From assembly GCF_000406105.1 (NCBI RefSeq), contig NZ_CM001974.1:325453-380948 (forward strand): a stretch of 55,496 bases of DNA, written 5' to 3'. This DNA is from Dickeya chrysanthemi NCPPB 402 (GTDB taxonomy: Bacteria > Pseudomonadota > Gammaproteobacteria > Enterobacterales > Enterobacteriaceae). Below the pieces are notes generated by a model. The model did no database searches and was not told the origin of the DNA. It saw only the letters and a list, made by a program, of their open reading frames with translations. Made by a program: the position numbers and the translations under genes. How positions within the stretch are numbered: the first letter of the stretch is position 1; each line of letters starts with the position of its first letter. Shown here in pieces: positions 5,662-14,820 of the stretch.

Positions 5662-7032
5662 ATGCAACCGGTTGATGAGCTGACGATTTTGGCCGAAGGG
5701 CTGCACGATGTGGTACGAAGGCGAATCTTGCGCACTTATATCGCACACATGGAGGAACAACGGCGGCATTTTGCCGGTTTTCAAACCAATCAGCAGGGGG
5801 AGTTCGACGCCGGGCTGCGCCCGCTGCTGGGGATGAACCTGTTAAACCTAGGAGACAGCATGGAACCCGGCGCTTATCAGGTGAACAGCAAGCGTTTTGA
5901 ACGAGCAGTGCTGGATTATTACGCCAGGTTGTGGCGCCTGCCGTCGCCATACTGGGGATACCTGACGGCGATGGGGTCGACCGAAGGCAATCTGTTTGCG
6001 CTGTGGAATGCGCGCGATTTTCTGTGCGGAGCGCCCACCACGCAGTGGCCGGCCGCCGCAGGCGTACGCTACGCGCCGGTGGTACTGTATTCCGAACGCA
6101 GCCACTATTCGCTGGCCAAGGCGTGCCGGGTATTGCAATTGGCAACCCCCGCCGAGGCGGGCCCCTCGCTGGGGCGTTGCCCGATCAACGCCGGGGTATG
6201 GCCGCGGGCGTTGCCTTGCGATGATGCCGGTCGTGTGGATGTGGAGAGCTTGCTGCAACTGGCGACGTTTTTTTATCGCTACCGACGGCCGGTGATTATT
6301 TGCCTCACCAGCGGGACCACGTTTAGCGGCGCCTGTGACGACTGGCGGCAGATTACGGCGCAATTGCAGCGGCGGTTGCCGCCGAATACGCCGCAACAAC
6401 GTAGCTATTGGCTGCATGTCGATGGTGCGTTGTCGTCCAACTATCTGCCGTTTTGGCCGGAACCGGAAGGGTGCCGACTGGCGATTGATGCACAGGCGGC
6501 ATCGCTGCATTCCATTTGCGCCAGTCCGTATAAATGGCTGAGTATGCCGTGGCCGTGCGGCGTGGTGATGCTGTCCGAGCCTTACCGCACGGTGGCGCTC
6601 AGCCGGCCGACTTATATCGGCAGCGGGGATGCCACCTTATCCGGGTCGCGTCCCGGTTTGTCTGCGGTGGTGTTGTGGAACCAACTGTGCCGCTTCGGCG
6701 AGCAGGGGCAGCAGGACATGCTCCGCCGCTGTCACGAGATACAGCGTTACGCTTACCAGCGGCTCCGCTATCTGTTTGAGCGGCTTGACCCCGAACGGGA
6801 GCGATTGTTTCTGCAACCGCTACTCAGCGGTTCGCTGATAGTGCAGTTCAGCGCGCCGCATCAATCGATTATCGATCGTTTCTCATTATCCAGCGACCAA
6901 CTGAGGGTGCAGGGAAAGCCCATGCTTTTCTGCCATCTGGTGGTGTTGCCGCATTGCCATCGGGCGCTGGTGGATAACCTGTTGTGGACGCTTGCGCAGC
7001 CCGGCGCTTTTCCCACAGAGAAGGAGGCGTGA
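5662..7032 (+). CDS. PLP-dependent decarboxylase (histidine/aromatic amino acid decarboxylase type)
   Basis: A 456-residue cytoplasmic group II PLP decarboxylase, expected to turn an amino acid into a primary amine and CO2. Motifs in order: [12 protein letters not shown] and [14 protein letters not shown] (about 62-90), [13 protein letters not shown] (98-110, cofactor phosphate loop), [14 protein letters not shown] (about 215-228), HVDGA with D254 for the pyridine nitrogen, and SPYKWL with K291 as the Schiff-base lysine. It most resembles bacterial histidine decarboxylases, but the substrate cannot be read from sequence. The ribosome binding site is AGAGGGTGA. Its stop lies one base before the ELIC ATG, so it is the first gene of a four-gene operon with an amine-gated channel and a transporter. 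Confidence 0.85.
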
Positions 7033-7033
7033 T

Positions 7034-8065
7034 ATGCGAATACTGTGGATATTGCTCGGGCTTGGCGGGTTGCTGTGTGCGATGCAGACGAGGGCGGCAG
7101 GAGGAGATAATACTGCGGACGTCCGGCCGGTCGATGTGAGCGTGAGTATTTTCATCAATAAAATCTACGGCGTGAACACGCTGGAACAGACCTATAAGGT
7201 CGATGGGTATATCGTCGCGCAATGGACCGGTAAACCGCGTAAAACACCCGGCGATAAGCCCTTAATTATTGAAAATAATCAGATCGAGCGCTGGATCACC
7301 GGCGGTCTATGGGTGCCGGCGCTGGAGTTCATCAACGTGGTCGGCAGCCCGGACACCGGTAATAAACGCCTGATGCTGTTTCCCGATGGGCGGGTGATTT
7401 ATAACGCCCGCTTTTTGGGGGCGTTCAGCAATGACATGGATTTTCGGCTGTTCCCGTTTGATCATCAACAGTTCGTATTGGAACTGGAGCCATTTTCCTA
7501 TAACAACCAGCAGTTGCGGTTCAGCAGCATCCAGGTCTACACCGAGAATATTGATAACGAAGAGATCGATGAATGGTGGATCCGCGGTAAAGCGTCAACC
7601 CACATTAGCGATATTCGTTACGACCATCTGAGCAGTGTACAGCCCAACCAGAATGAGTTTTCTCGCATTACGGTGCAGATAGACGCGGTGCGTAATCCGT
7701 CGTACTACCTGTGGAGCTTCATTCTGCCGCTGGGGCTGATTATCGCCGCTTCCTGGAGTGTGTTCTGGCTGGAGTCGTTCTCCGAGCGGTTGCAAACCTC
7801 TTTTACGTTGATGTTAACGGTGGTGGCCTACGCGTTTTACACCAGCAACATTCTGCCGCGCCTGCCTTACACCACCGTCATAGACCAGATGATTATCGCC
7901 GGTTATGGCAGCATTTTCGCTGCAATTCTACTGATTATCTTTGCACATCATCGCCGGGCGAGCGGGCTGGAAGACGAGCGGTTGATACGTCGTTGCCGGC
8001 TGGCTTTCCCGCTCGGATTTCTGACGATTGGCGGCTGGCTGATTATACGAGGGCTCACGCTATGA
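7034..8065 (+). CDS. Pentameric ligand-gated ion channel ELIC
   Basis: A 343-residue cys-loop-superfamily channel, clearly the ELIC of Erwinia/Dickeya chrysanthemi. Start at 7034 is set by AAGGAGG six bases upstream and by a good signal peptide (residues 1 to about 21). An extracellular beta-sandwich domain of about 200 residues follows, facing the periplasm, with no Cys-loop cysteines ([15 protein letters not shown]). Then come four transmembrane helices, with the pore helix in [16 protein letters not shown]. Residues of the known amine site are recognisable in LELEPF, DIRYDHL and NEFSRI. Purified ELIC is a cation channel opened by primary amines such as cysteamine, propylamine and GABA. Its gene partners here are an amino acid decarboxylase, a sensor-like protein and an MFS transporter; it overlaps the next gene by ATGA. 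Confidence 0.96.
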
Positions 8066-11938: not shown

Positions 11939-13903
11939 ATGATGATGCACTCGTCGAACACTCATGAATTATTGATTGATGACCCGCTTTCTGGTTTACA
12001 GCAATTGGGGATAAATGGCGAGGGAATAAAAATCGGTATTATTGATGGCGCTATTGAAAATCATCATCCGATATTAAACCATTTAACCATTGAAGGCCTG
12101 TCTGCTCAGAAAGATAAAGGCACCTCTCACGGAACGGCGGTAAGCAGTATTATCGGTGGAAACGGTGTGGGTATTGCACCGGCGGTAACCCTGCTGAGTA
12201 TTCCTGTCTTTCATGAGGATGAACAGGGAAATATTCATGGCTGTTCTGAGCGCACGCTTGCCAAAGCGATCCGTGATGCACGTTTGAAGGGGTGCCGTAT
12301 TATTAATGTCAGCGGTGCATCATTATCCGTTAATGGCAAGGGCACCGATGAATTACGCAAGGCTATCGATGATTGCGAAAAAGAAGGGGTATTGATCGTT
12401 GCGGCTGTCGGTAATGAAGGCCGTAATAGTGAATCATTACCTGCGTCGATGGATTTTGTCCTGGCTGTTGGCGCTTGTGATAAAGCAGGATTGCCGGCCT
12501 CATTTAATAACTACGGATTAAAACTGAGAAAGAAAATGTTGCTGGCATCCGGTGTCTCTATTCCTGTTGCTACGCCGAATTATGATCTGTCTGTTGTTTC
12601 TGGCAGCAGTTTTTCCGCCCCGGTGGTGTCGGCAATATCGGCATTAATCATGAGGGCGATGAATATAGTAAACGATCGTCGTGCGTCAAAAATGATTCGG
12701 GAGCGGCTGTTTAATACCGCGACCCCACTTGTGTTGTCAACGGCAGCTAATCGGGAGTCGGTTATATACCGATTAAATATTCAGAAATTATTCCGGCAAA
12801 TAGCACAGGAATTTTATCACCAACCACCCAAAAGGATCATGACCATGTCAACTGAAGAAAAAAATATTGAGCCTGCCGCCGTGGAGCTGCTGGTTCCCTC
12901 TATTATCGATGCCCAGCAGGATATTCAGGATGTTGAGTCTGACGATGATACCGTACTGGCACCTTCCAGCCTGAATACTGAAGTGAGCATTCCATCGCGC
13001 GATGCCGGTTTGTCATTACCCAAAATCCATGATCCGGCGGCCAATCATTATGTGCATGCCCCGGTTCGCCGGATTATGCCGCAGTCTTCGTCATTGGATG
13101 CGCGCACGATACGTGATCAGGAAAAGATCTTTGTTATCGGTCAGGTCGGTTATGACTTCGGTACTGAAGCCCGGCTGGATTATTTCACCCAGGTGATGGG
13201 GAATAAAAGCGGTTATCCGTTTGATCCGGTGCAAATGGCCGAGCACCTGAATACCGGCGACAATGCGGAGCAATCCAACGCGTTAATCTGGACATTAAAA
13301 ATCGATGGCATTCCGGTTTATGCCATTAAGCCCGATGCGCAATTCGCCGTGCTGGAATATGCCCGTTTGGTGGAATTCCTGTATGAACAGGAAACCAAAG
13401 GTGTGGAGCGTGTTTCTATTGCCGGCATTATCAGTGGTGAAACCCGCTTGTTCAACGGCCAGGTGATTCCAACGATAAGCCCGGTACTGCGAGGCATGTT
13501 CAACTGGGAGTCTCAGGATATTTCGAAGATGCTGATGGGGGAAAGCGCCATGGGCACGTCGAAATCCAAAGAGTTGATCAACTTCATCAACCGTATTTAT
13601 TACGAACTGCGTAATCGTGGTTATGAGTCGAATGAACGCGCGATTAACTATGCGGCGACCAACGCCTATCAGATGAAAGAAATTTTTGATGATGCGTTTG
13701 CCGAAGGATTATTCCTGAACAAGATCAGCGCGGAACGCAGCCCGGTCAGCCGTCCGGAGTCGGATTGCTGGGACGTGGTGCTGGAATTCTTCAACCCGAA
13801 AGAACGTCTCACCGCGGCGCGTAAACTCTATCGCTATACCATTGACGTGAGCGACGTTATGCCGGTCACCATCGGCACGCTGCGCAGCTGGCACGCTTAT
13901 TAA
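11939..13903 (+). CDS. PatA/PatG-type subtilase (RiPP-maturation-like protease)
   Basis: A 654-residue two-part protein. Residues about 25-260 form an S8 subtilisin domain with a complete triad: D36 (IGIIDGAIE), H64 (SHGTAVSS) and S224 (GSSFSAP), plus oxyanion N159 (AAVGNEG). No signal peptide, so it acts in the cytoplasm. A low-complexity linker (about 300-390) leads to a C-terminal region (about 395-654) resembling the extra domain of cyanobactin proteases PatA/PatG, which cut and cyclise ribosomal peptides. Three tandem ATGs start the gene after AGGAAAG. A 49-codon peptide gene lies 107 bp downstream, a candidate substrate. An internal ribosome site with ATG at 12845 could yield the C-terminal part alone. 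Base composition is more AT-rich than the flanks, suggesting transfer. Confidence 0.8.
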   Translation: MMMHSSNTHELLIDDPLSGLQQLGINGEGIKIGIIDGAIENHHPILNHLTIEGLSAQKDKGTSHGTAVSSIIGGNGVGIAPAVTLLSIPVFHEDEQGNIHGCSERTLAKAIRDARLKGCRIINVSGASLSVNGKGTDELRKAIDDCEKEGVLIVAAVGNEGRNSESLPASMDFVLAVGACDKAGLPASFNNYGLKLRKKMLLASGVSIPVATPNYDLSVVSGSSFSAPVVSAISALIMRAMNIVNDRRASKMIRERLFNTATPLVLSTAANRESVIYRLNIQKLFRQIAQEFYHQPPKRIMTMSTEEKNIEPAAVELLVPSIIDAQQDIQDVESDDDTVLAPSSLNTEVSIPSRDAGLSLPKIHDPAANHYVHAPVRRIMPQSSSLDARTIRDQEKIFVIGQVGYDFGTEARLDYFTQVMGNKSGYPFDPVQMAEHLNTGDNAEQSNALIWTLKIDGIPVYAIKPDAQFAVLEYARLVEFLYEQETKGVERVSIAGIISGETRLFNGQVIPTISPVLRGMFNWESQDISKMLMGESAMGTSKSKELINFINRIYYELRNRGYESNERAINYAATNAYQMKEIFDDAFAEGLFLNKISAERSPVSRPESDCWDVVLEFFNPKERLTAARKLYRYTIDVSDVMPVTIGTLRSWHAY

Positions 13904-13962
13904 TATCAGCTGGCCGATAACCGTTTATTTTTAGATTTGCCGCCGATTGGGGGCATTAACCT

Positions 13963-13974
13963 GGGGATATCCCC
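13963..13974 (+). promoter_or_regulatory. Small palindrome between subtilase and peptide genes
   Basis: GGGGATATCCCC followed by AAAATA sits 36 bp before the peptide start. It could be an RNA hairpin that trims or slows transcription between the two genes, allowing different expression levels. No T tract follows, so it is not a standard terminator. Confidence 0.3.
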
Positions 13975-14010
13975 AAAATACAATGCAAATATACTCAAGG
14001 AGAATTAACC

Positions 14011-14160
14011 ATGAAACTTCCAACTCAAGCACAGAATGTCAACCGCGCCAACCGTGTTGCTGAAGCCAAAGCTTCCGGCGTTAACCCGGCTTTCTGGGGT
14101 GAAGCGCTGAAACTGCTGAAAAAAGCAGGCCAGGGCGCACTGAGCGGCGTACTGAGTTAA
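14011..14160 (+). CDS. 49-residue cationic helical peptide, candidate RiPP precursor or bacteriocin
   Basis: A small gene with a strong AAGGAG site eight bases before its ATG and a perfect hairpin after its stop. The peptide starts MKLPTQAQNVNRANR, polar and leader-like, continues through an Ala/Lys stretch, and ends with NPAFWGEALKLLKKAG and a Gly/Ser-rich tail. The second half would fold as an amphipathic, net positive helix like membrane-active peptides. It has no cysteine and few Ser/Thr, so thiazoline or lanthionine chemistry is unlikely. The upstream subtilase suggests proteolytic removal of the N-terminal part. I do not recognise a named family. Real gene: likely; function: inference. 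Confidence 0.75.
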   Translation: MKLPTQAQNVNRANRVAEAKASGVNPAFWGEALKLLKKAGQGALSGVLS

Positions 14161-14165
14161 TCGGC

Positions 14166-14197
14166 AATGGTGCATGACCTTATGGTCATGCACCATT
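14166..14197 (+). terminator. Terminator of the peptide gene
   Basis: A perfect 14-bp stem (AATGGTGCATGACC with its complement) and a 4-nt loop begin six bases after the peptide stop. The following CTT-rich tract is weak, but the stem is among the strongest in the window and may also stabilise the short mRNA. Confidence 0.7.
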
Positions 14198-14488: not shown

Positions 14489-14820
14489 ATGTCTAATAAT
14501 GGATTTCTGGTGAACACCGCAGTAATCAAAGATCTCAGGTTAAAAAAAAATTAAGTCAGGAGGAGTTATCGGAACAGAGTCTTGAATCGAAGTGTTATAT
14601 CTCTATCTCTACAATAAAAAGAGCGGAGTTGGGTAAACCGATTTCCAGACAAACACTGTGTAAATTGGCAAGATTCTTTGACGTCGCTGTGGAAAACCTG
14701 GTATTGCAATCACATGAACGGGGTTCCCGTGACGCGGATTATGACGAATACCAATGTCTCGCTTTTATCTTTGCTGGTTTATATAAGATGTTAATAATCA
14801 ATGAGGCGAGCAAGACCTGA
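14489..14820 (+). pseudogene. XRE-family regulator split by a -1 shift at an A9 tract
   Basis: Reading from the ATG at 14489 (AGAGGG upstream) gives a 21-codon ORF that stops right after nine A (14542-14550). One extra A would join it to the second frame, which continues as a classic helix-turn-helix: KKKLSQEELSEQS, then ISISTIKRAELGKPISRQTL, CKLARFFDVAVENLV, then about 30 further residues to the stop at 14820. The joined product would be about 110 residues, a normal size for a small XRE regulator. Either the gene is dead, or slippage of RNA polymerase or ribosome on the A tract restores it. Its place after the peptide locus suggests it once controlled, or still controls, that locus. Confidence 0.72.

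Follow-up and report, generated by a model that had tools for sequence, protein, structure and literature searches.

A PatA-type protease and a tagged 49-residue peptide in Dickeya chrysanthemi: a probable protease-only variant of the cyanobactin kind

The protease and peptide genes

The stretch of DNA that was analysed (the window) comprises 55,496 nucleotides of the genome of the plant-associated bacterium Dickeya chrysanthemi NCPPB 402 (NZ_CM001974.1, positions 325,453 to 380,948) and carries two adjacent genes on the forward strand, one for an S8 protease related to PatA of the cyanobactin pathways and one for a peptide of 49 residues. The original prediction, made from the sequence of the window, was that the two genes constitute a protease-only pathway for a ribosomal peptide outside the known classes.

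The protease gene (positions 11939..13903, forward strand) encoded 654 residues and was identified as PatA-type by its Pfam and NCBIfam matches. The Peptidase_S8 domain (PF00082, residues 27-264, 6e-32) was followed by a linker, residues 296-390, that was disordered in the structure model, and by the two parts of a PatG domain, PatG_D (PF18047, residues 396-496, 3e-18) and PatG_C (PF18065, residues 544-651, 3.5e-34). The score against TIGR03895, the PatA/PatG family, was 462.8 bits, above the curated cut-off of 421.05. The catalytic residues Asp36, His64 and Ser224, as well as Asn159, were present and were invariant across 29 aligned homologues. The predicted S8 protease with an intact triad and a PatA/PatG-like C-terminal domain was therefore confirmed. 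No signal peptide was apparent when the protein sequence was read by eye, and no sensor domain was seen in the Pfam scan. PatG_C was found in six of 369 genomes sampled from the class, a number that includes this genome and one mere fragment, while matches to the protease in a plasmid collection were distant, with less than 60% identity.

By sequence, the S8 domain was nearest to PatA and PagA rather than to the PatG macrocyclase, having 31-35% identity with the PatA/PagA entries 4h6v, 3zxx, 3zxy and 4h6w of the PDB, and PagA was near by fold as well. The PatG domain had a sequence match to PDB entry 4uvq.

The peptide gene (14011..14160, forward strand), recognized as an open reading frame (ORF) with homologues, began 107 bp after the end of the protease ORF and had an AAGGAG ribosome site 8 nt from its ATG, as originally described. 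A database search at E<=1 returned 24 proteins including the query, and thus 23 other homologues, the named ones coming from Dickeya, Thalassotalea, Endozoicomonas, Photobacterium, Pantoea and Vibrio. Eight contigs were apparently common to the peptide and protease matches, which suggests, without proving it, that the two genes are linked there too. The peptide was present in eight of nine genomes of the genus and in three of 394 genomes sampled from the order (this genome counted in both cases), and in none of 49 other relatives sampled. Searches of the plasmid and phage collections gave no match to it, nor did E. coli genomes at the DNA level, and in Pfam and NCBIfam nothing passed the curated cut-offs. 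The seven non-cyanobactin-type peptides among ten that were scanned likewise had nothing above the cut-offs of Pfam and NCBIfam; two of them gave weak NCBIfam matches and three weak Pfam matches to models of the cyanobactin precursor type.

The ratio of nonsynonymous to synonymous polymorphism (pN/pS) was 0.06 for residues 2-27 and 0.31 for residues 28-49 among eight Dickeya loci, and 0.18 and 0.28, respectively, among 13 gammaproteobacterial copies. Alignment of the homologues showed invariant residues both in the N-terminal leader and in the C-terminal core, the latter being well kept between genera. Protease and small peptide are a conserved two-gene unit. A spurious ORF was also considered, and was ruled out by the homologues, the selection and the synteny.

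The leader tag and the cleavage signal

The layout of the peptide was MKLPTQAQNVNR-ANRVAEAKAS-GVNPA followed by FWGEALKLLKKAGQGALSGVLS. The leader tag MKLPTQAQNVNR (14011..14046, forward strand) corresponded to a family consensus, MKLPxQxxPVxR, in which Pro4, Gln6 and Arg12 were invariant in both alignments used, A1 and A3. The pentapeptide GVNPA (residues 23-27; 14077..14091, forward strand), 10 residues past the tag, was taken as an RSII-like cleavage signal from its likeness to the PatA consensus; PatA-like enzymes cut after G(L/V)E(A/P)S (PMC10885120).

When species genomes were scanned with an alignment of the protease, 279 related stretches were obtained, of which the 80 best were retained; these correspond to 79 different loci, spread over Cyanobacteriota, Acidobacteriota, Planctomycetota, Actinomycetota, several pseudomonadotan classes and other groups. 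Small ORFs were scored as tagged if the N-terminus matched [LMIFRTV]P.Q..{0,2}P?[VIL].R, a rule that was made, like the choice of 15 cores described below, after the sequences had been seen, so that flanks and shuffles served as controls. Within 3 kb downstream of the proteases there were 98 tagged ORFs on the same strand and one on the opposite strand, compared with four and nine, respectively, within 3 kb upstream and six and four in 723 kb of far flank; the reversed-sequence control gave three. The downstream ORFs were distributed over 57 of the 79 loci, and several loci carried two to five different ones, with paralogous copies in tandem. The check that had been proposed for the pair, whether the small ORF is conserved with the protease, was thus answered positively both by the homologues of the peptide and by these downstream frames. 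Behind the tag, 43 of the 98 tails had the pattern G[VIL]x[AP][SA], as against a mean of 3.2 and a maximum of nine in 500 shuffles, and in all 43 it lay 9-17 residues from the tag.

The A3 profile, built from 24 leaders from outside the classical gammaproteobacteria (its rows include two Oxalobacteraceae and three close alphaproteobacterial relatives), had the peptide as its sole significant match in the D. chrysanthemi genome (1.8e-9; next match 0.235). The peptide also ranked first when the profile was made from 12 leaders of cyanobacterial loci lacking PatB or PatE hallmarks (8.5e-4; next match 0.145). In its tag and in a PatA-like cleavage signal, the peptide agrees with the members of a large family in which PatA-like proteases are paired with peptides.

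The tag was not confined to peptides of this kind. A protein of 76 residues from the PatB/AcyB/McaB family (L054:13120-13347; TIGR04220, 5.1e-36), the sole member tested, began with the same tag, MKLPKQSPPVKR; this family has no comparable helical core and is found beside cyanobactin genes. The tagged PatB-family protein and the invariant residues of both leader and core would suit a small ORF whose product stays intact and serves the protease as a partner or regulator instead of being its substrate. Nevertheless, the recurrence of the PatA-like signal at a narrow distance behind the tag, the tandem paralogous copies and a Dickeya core that is more variable than the leader make this explanation very unlikely.

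Three of the alphaproteobacterial loci (L015, L016 and L017) each had two or more tagged ORFs. They had further ORFs in common near or upstream of the protease, including one for a Gly/Ile-repeat protein and others with weak TPR-like and pseudoprotease-like matches below the cut-off.

Relationship to the cyanobactin pathways

Like the cyanobactin pathways (PatA/PatE, for example that of patellamide), the Dickeya pair combined an S8 protease carrying C-terminal PatG_D and PatG_C with a precursor in which an N-terminal P.Q..PV.R-like tag and a cut-site-like signal, G-V-x-P/A-S/A, precede the core. The differences were that the predicted core is a 22-residue helix without cysteine, that the host is a gammaproteobacterium, and that several of the remaining components were not found near the pair. 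No PatD-like cyclodehydratase, sought with a model built from one sequence, and no second PatA/PatG-type (macrocyclising) protease was found in the window, while a pattern search revealed no PatB/PatE hallmark within about 8 kb of the pair. The absence of cyclodehydratase genes had been noted in the original prediction. PatA and PagA, although closest to the Dickeya S8 domain by sequence, act on a different substrate core and work alongside a second protease in cyanobactin clusters.

The hallmark labels were simple, crude patterns (HGAN[YF]NDP for PatB), and two loci counted as others, L083 and L085, appeared cyanobactin-like by eye. With this classification, relatives of the PatD model were present at 12 of 23 hallmark loci and at one of the 57 others, the window being among the latter, and a further PatA/PatG-type ORF was present at 17 of 23 and at six of 57, respectively; of these six, L025 and L033 matched the PatG-domain part only and L085 the S8 part only. 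A tree of 77 of the 80 proteases (L023, L026 and L067 were dropped) was made by a quick method with midpoint rooting and had long branches, so that clustering alone was used. The hallmark loci clustered, requiring five changes compared with 19.9 on shuffling, and the Dickeya protease grouped with those of Yersinia, Enterobacter and Vibrio and with three alphaproteobacterial loci.

The C-terminal cyclisation signal RSIII was missing, the peptide ending in ...GVLS, and no cyanobactin precursor model in NCBIfam matched the peptide. The original statement that the usual recognition tails of cyanobactins are lacking was correct for RSIII and incorrect in so far as an RSII-like site, GVNPA, and a cyanobactin-like N-terminal tag are present. 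Cyclisation is unlikely, because RSIII is missing and the sequence of the S8 domain is nearer to PatA/PagA. The PatA-type protease and the antiSMASH label 'cyanobactin' on Dickeya loci could also point to a cyanobactin proper, cyclised by an enzyme encoded elsewhere in the genome; with a peptide that lacks RSIII and neither a second protease nor a PatD-like gene in the window, this is highly improbable.

The best reading is a protease-only peptide pathway, as had been proposed, because the two genes are a conserved unit and the window yielded neither a cyclodehydratase-like gene nor a second protease. The further proposal that the pathway lies outside the known classes was not borne out, since the tag and the PatA-like signal are common to PatA-like pairs, among which the loci with PatB/PatE hallmarks cluster. 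The Dickeya pair was classified as a new variant of the cyanobactin kind, probably without cyclisation.

A 2015 review stated that cyanobactin clusters were known from cyanobacteria only (PMC4663559). One study of eight D. fangzhongdai genomes listed an antiSMASH 'cyanobactin' cluster in every one of them, tied to no known molecule and probably identical with this locus (PMC6329079); such a cluster was also listed in D. zeae strains (PMC8386352, PMC8864124; see also PMC10319131). In Photobacterium sp. CCB-ST2H9 the 'cyanobactin' cluster is L4174_20290-20360 (PMC9456166) and the peptide homologue is L4174_020325, which lies inside it; the label therefore covers such protease/peptide pairs. Judged by titles and abstract openings, none of the open-licence papers listed in the literature searches described the peptide or the common tag, nor did the passages seen describe its processing; as far as seen there, the label for Dickeya is in print and the mechanism is not. 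For a kind of locus to which the papers seen give no more than the label 'cyanobactin' in Dickeya genomes, the pair provides a concrete predicted substrate, cut site and product mass.

The predicted product and its mechanism of release

The interpretation that we favor, with a probability of about 0.7, is a minimal ribosomal-peptide pathway in which the protease would free a 22-residue helix from the tagged 49-residue precursor. In the precursor, a short helical spacer would separate the tag MKLPTQAQNVNR from the cleavage signal GVNPA, after which the cytoplasmic PatA-type protease is predicted to cut, between Ala27 and Phe28, while PatG_D/PatG_C probably helps to recruit the tagged substrate. 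The product would be the linear, amphipathic and weakly cationic helix FWGEALKLLKKAGQGALSGVLS (residues 28-49; 14092..14157, forward strand), predicted from the AlphaFold2 model and the helical moment, with a computed monoisotopic mass of 2272.29 Da, the corresponding value for the 27-residue leader being 2834.49 Da. Proteolysis is the only modification predicted, and neither cyclisation nor heterocycle formation would be expected.

The AlphaFold2 model of the peptide placed helices at residues 12-21 and 26-48 with the cut site in between. The helical moment of each of the 15 selected cysteine-free cores, taken from the predicted or matching cut, was reached by fewer than 3% of its own shuffles. 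A membrane-active role of the core is therefore a likely though weak inference; the released helix might be bacteriocin-like, a lysis peptide or a signal peptide, and its export and activity are likewise inferred. Leaderless or linear helical bacteriocins are also short cationic amphipathic helices, as the Dickeya core is predicted to be; none is known to have a PatA-type protease or a cyanobactin-like leader.

Several observations weigh against this interpretation. Two of the five residues of GVNPA deviate from the published consensus, Asn replacing Glu and Ala replacing Ser, and 55 of the 98 tagged ORFs lacked the strict cleavage pattern. There was no tagged ORF within 3 kb downstream at 22 of the 79 loci. 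A profile of 16 PatE/PatB-type leaders (12 PatE-type, three PatB-type and one from a Roseobacter cluster) missed the Dickeya peptide at E<=10, so that the tie to true cyanobactin precursors runs via intermediate peptides. The fold comparison did not separate the PatA entries (33.7-35.8) from PatG (33.9); its rows fell in residues 11-300, the S8 domain, and it was therefore uninformative on the PatG domain. Confidence in the peptide model was modest (predicted local distance difference test score, pLDDT, 66), and no transporter or immunity gene common to the gammaproteobacterial loci was seen. Moreover, nuclear magnetic resonance (NMR) showed no binding of PatE' by the isolated PatG domain (PMC4259220), an experiment that concerned the domain of PatG, not that of PatA.

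That no common transporter was seen and no signal peptide was apparent would also be compatible with a self-acting or phage-triggered system, in which the activated protease frees a membrane-disrupting helix inside the producer instead of a peptide for export. In gasdermin-type systems, an activated protease frees a membrane-disrupting part inside the cell. The amphipathic core, the rare and patchy occurrence of the gene pair and the resemblance of the S8 domain to candidate anti-phage subtilases (PADLOC subtilase model, 3.3e-19; IetS, 6e-8) could be accommodated as well. However, the PADLOC matches were confined to the S8 part, a fold common to all subtilases, the peptide was unmatched in phages and plasmids, the protease had no recognizable sensor domain, and the different tagged ORFs found together at several loci better suit a family of products. 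We consider such a system unlikely.

The PatG domain

The structure of the PatG domain described by Mann et al. has a novel fold (PMC4259220). Removal of residues 1-25 from PatE slowed its processing by TruD only slightly (PMC3995012), and since so little of this segment is needed the tag has had no assigned role in cyanobactin pathways. The tag accompanied PatG-domain proteases also at loci where no other cyanobactin enzyme was found. In one Oscillatoria cluster with tagged precursors, PatG_D/PatG_C was twice fused to an S-adenosylmethionine (SAM) methyltransferase domain (L130:9158-10831 and L130:11023-12711, reverse strand, from the domain scan). In single database records, some of them short contigs, the PatG domain occurred with redoxin-like, DNA-methylase-like or kinase domains or alone, and in an Acidobacteria locus it was duplicated without S8. 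The co-occurrence of tag and domain, the varied fusions, the stand-alone forms and the tagged PatB-family protein suggest that PatG_D/PatG_C is a recruitment module, against which the NMR result for the domain of PatG has to be set.

A possible internal translation start was found at codon 303 of the Dickeya protease, with the Shine-Dalgarno-like AAGGA 8 nt upstream, and would give a stand-alone PatG_D/PatG_C protein (12845..13903, forward strand); the first ATG of the linker, codon 301, did not score. Shine-Dalgarno-like words of at least five bases preceded 50 of 168 in-frame ATGs in the linkers, compared with 15 of 533 elsewhere in the genes. At the first linker ATG, which was usable at 59 of the 80 loci, 30 had such a word, whereas synonymous recoding would lead one to expect 10.6; the largest value among 20,000 simulations was 23, below the observed 30, the relatedness of the loci being uncorrected. 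The residues encoded by the word varied between groups (KR, RR, GE, GG) while the DNA word was kept, and internal ATGs with such a word ahead of the PatG-domain part occurred in loci of several phyla.

A broader generalization is tentative, its odds being somewhat less than even: PatG_D/PatG_C may be a general recruiter of proteins tagged with LPxQxxPVxR, acting in cis as part of fusion proteins, whose partners include proteases, methyltransferases and redoxin-like enzymes, and in addition as a separate protein made from the internal start. The cyanobactins would then be one specialized branch of a bacteria-wide family of PatA-like proteases and tagged peptides, in which protease and peptides alone are a common form and PatB is a tagged client. 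The pairing of tag and domain may explain a conserved domain of cyanobactin proteases whose function has been unexplained, and suggests why precursors retain an N-terminal segment that is nearly dispensable for the heterocyclase. The wider family of PatA-like pairs thus yields a hypothesis on the PatG domain that can be tested. If the tag is the ligand of this domain, genomes of many phyla could be searched for tagged peptides, and these enzymes could be supplied with new cores.

The two Oscillatoria fusions passed the cut-off of TIGR03895, a 'protease' model, though no S8 domain was listed for them. At three other loci (L090, L091 and L092) the subtilase and PatG_C frames were two separate genes, and at the first of these they were followed by a small Cys-rich frame that lacks the usual tag.

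Regulatory elements and neighboring genes

A promoter-like pair, TTAACC-17-TACAAT (13956..13984, forward strand), preceded the peptide gene, and a perfect 14-bp palindrome, TGGGGATATCCCCA (13962-13975), lay operator-like between its hexamers. The evidence for a promoter was weak, the promoter scan giving six matches, below the shuffle mean of 9.1, and both elements were the same or similar by eye in eight Dickeya loci. A palindrome-based search for a wider regulon found one site only in the genome.

Further downstream, a helix-turn-helix (HTH) regulator gene (14489..14820, forward strand) consisted of two parts in different frames flanking an A9 run at 14542-14550. The split between an N-terminal part and the HTH core occurred at the A-run in all 11 genomes compared (eight Dickeya, two Yersinia and one Enterobacter), ten having A9 and one A8, and looks like programmed transcriptional slippage or frameshifting. 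The match of the scanned part to HTH_3 was 0.0015, under the Pfam cut-off. Among ORFs of at least 60 residues near the pair, the HTH gene was the sole one seen to recur across genera, namely these three, and no such regulator was seen at the Vibrio locus.

The position of the HTH gene behind the peptide gene in Dickeya, Yersinia and Enterobacter, together with the well-kept core and the palindrome, raises the question of whether the 22-mer is a pheromone that signals to this regulator or to another receptor. The Vibrio locus, where no such gene was seen, argues against it, as do the weak HTH matches of the scanned part, which had no peptide-binding domain, and the length of a 22-residue amphipathic helix, which is long for a cytoplasmic pheromone. 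A pheromone is distinctly unlikely.

The perfect terminator claimed behind the peptide gene was present as a perfect 14-bp inverted repeat with a 4-nt loop, found by inverted-repeat search (14166..14197, forward strand), and is terminator-like; within the window it was not followed by a proper T-run, and it was not among the terminators listed by the scan. The arms of the hairpin differed among Dickeya species, with changes on both arms and pairing kept, as judged by eye.

Elsewhere in the window, the pentameric ligand-gated channel ELIC was encoded at positions 6992-8065 (match to PDB 2yn6, 2e-205), and next to it lay an ORF (5662-7032) that was decarboxylase-like by reading only.
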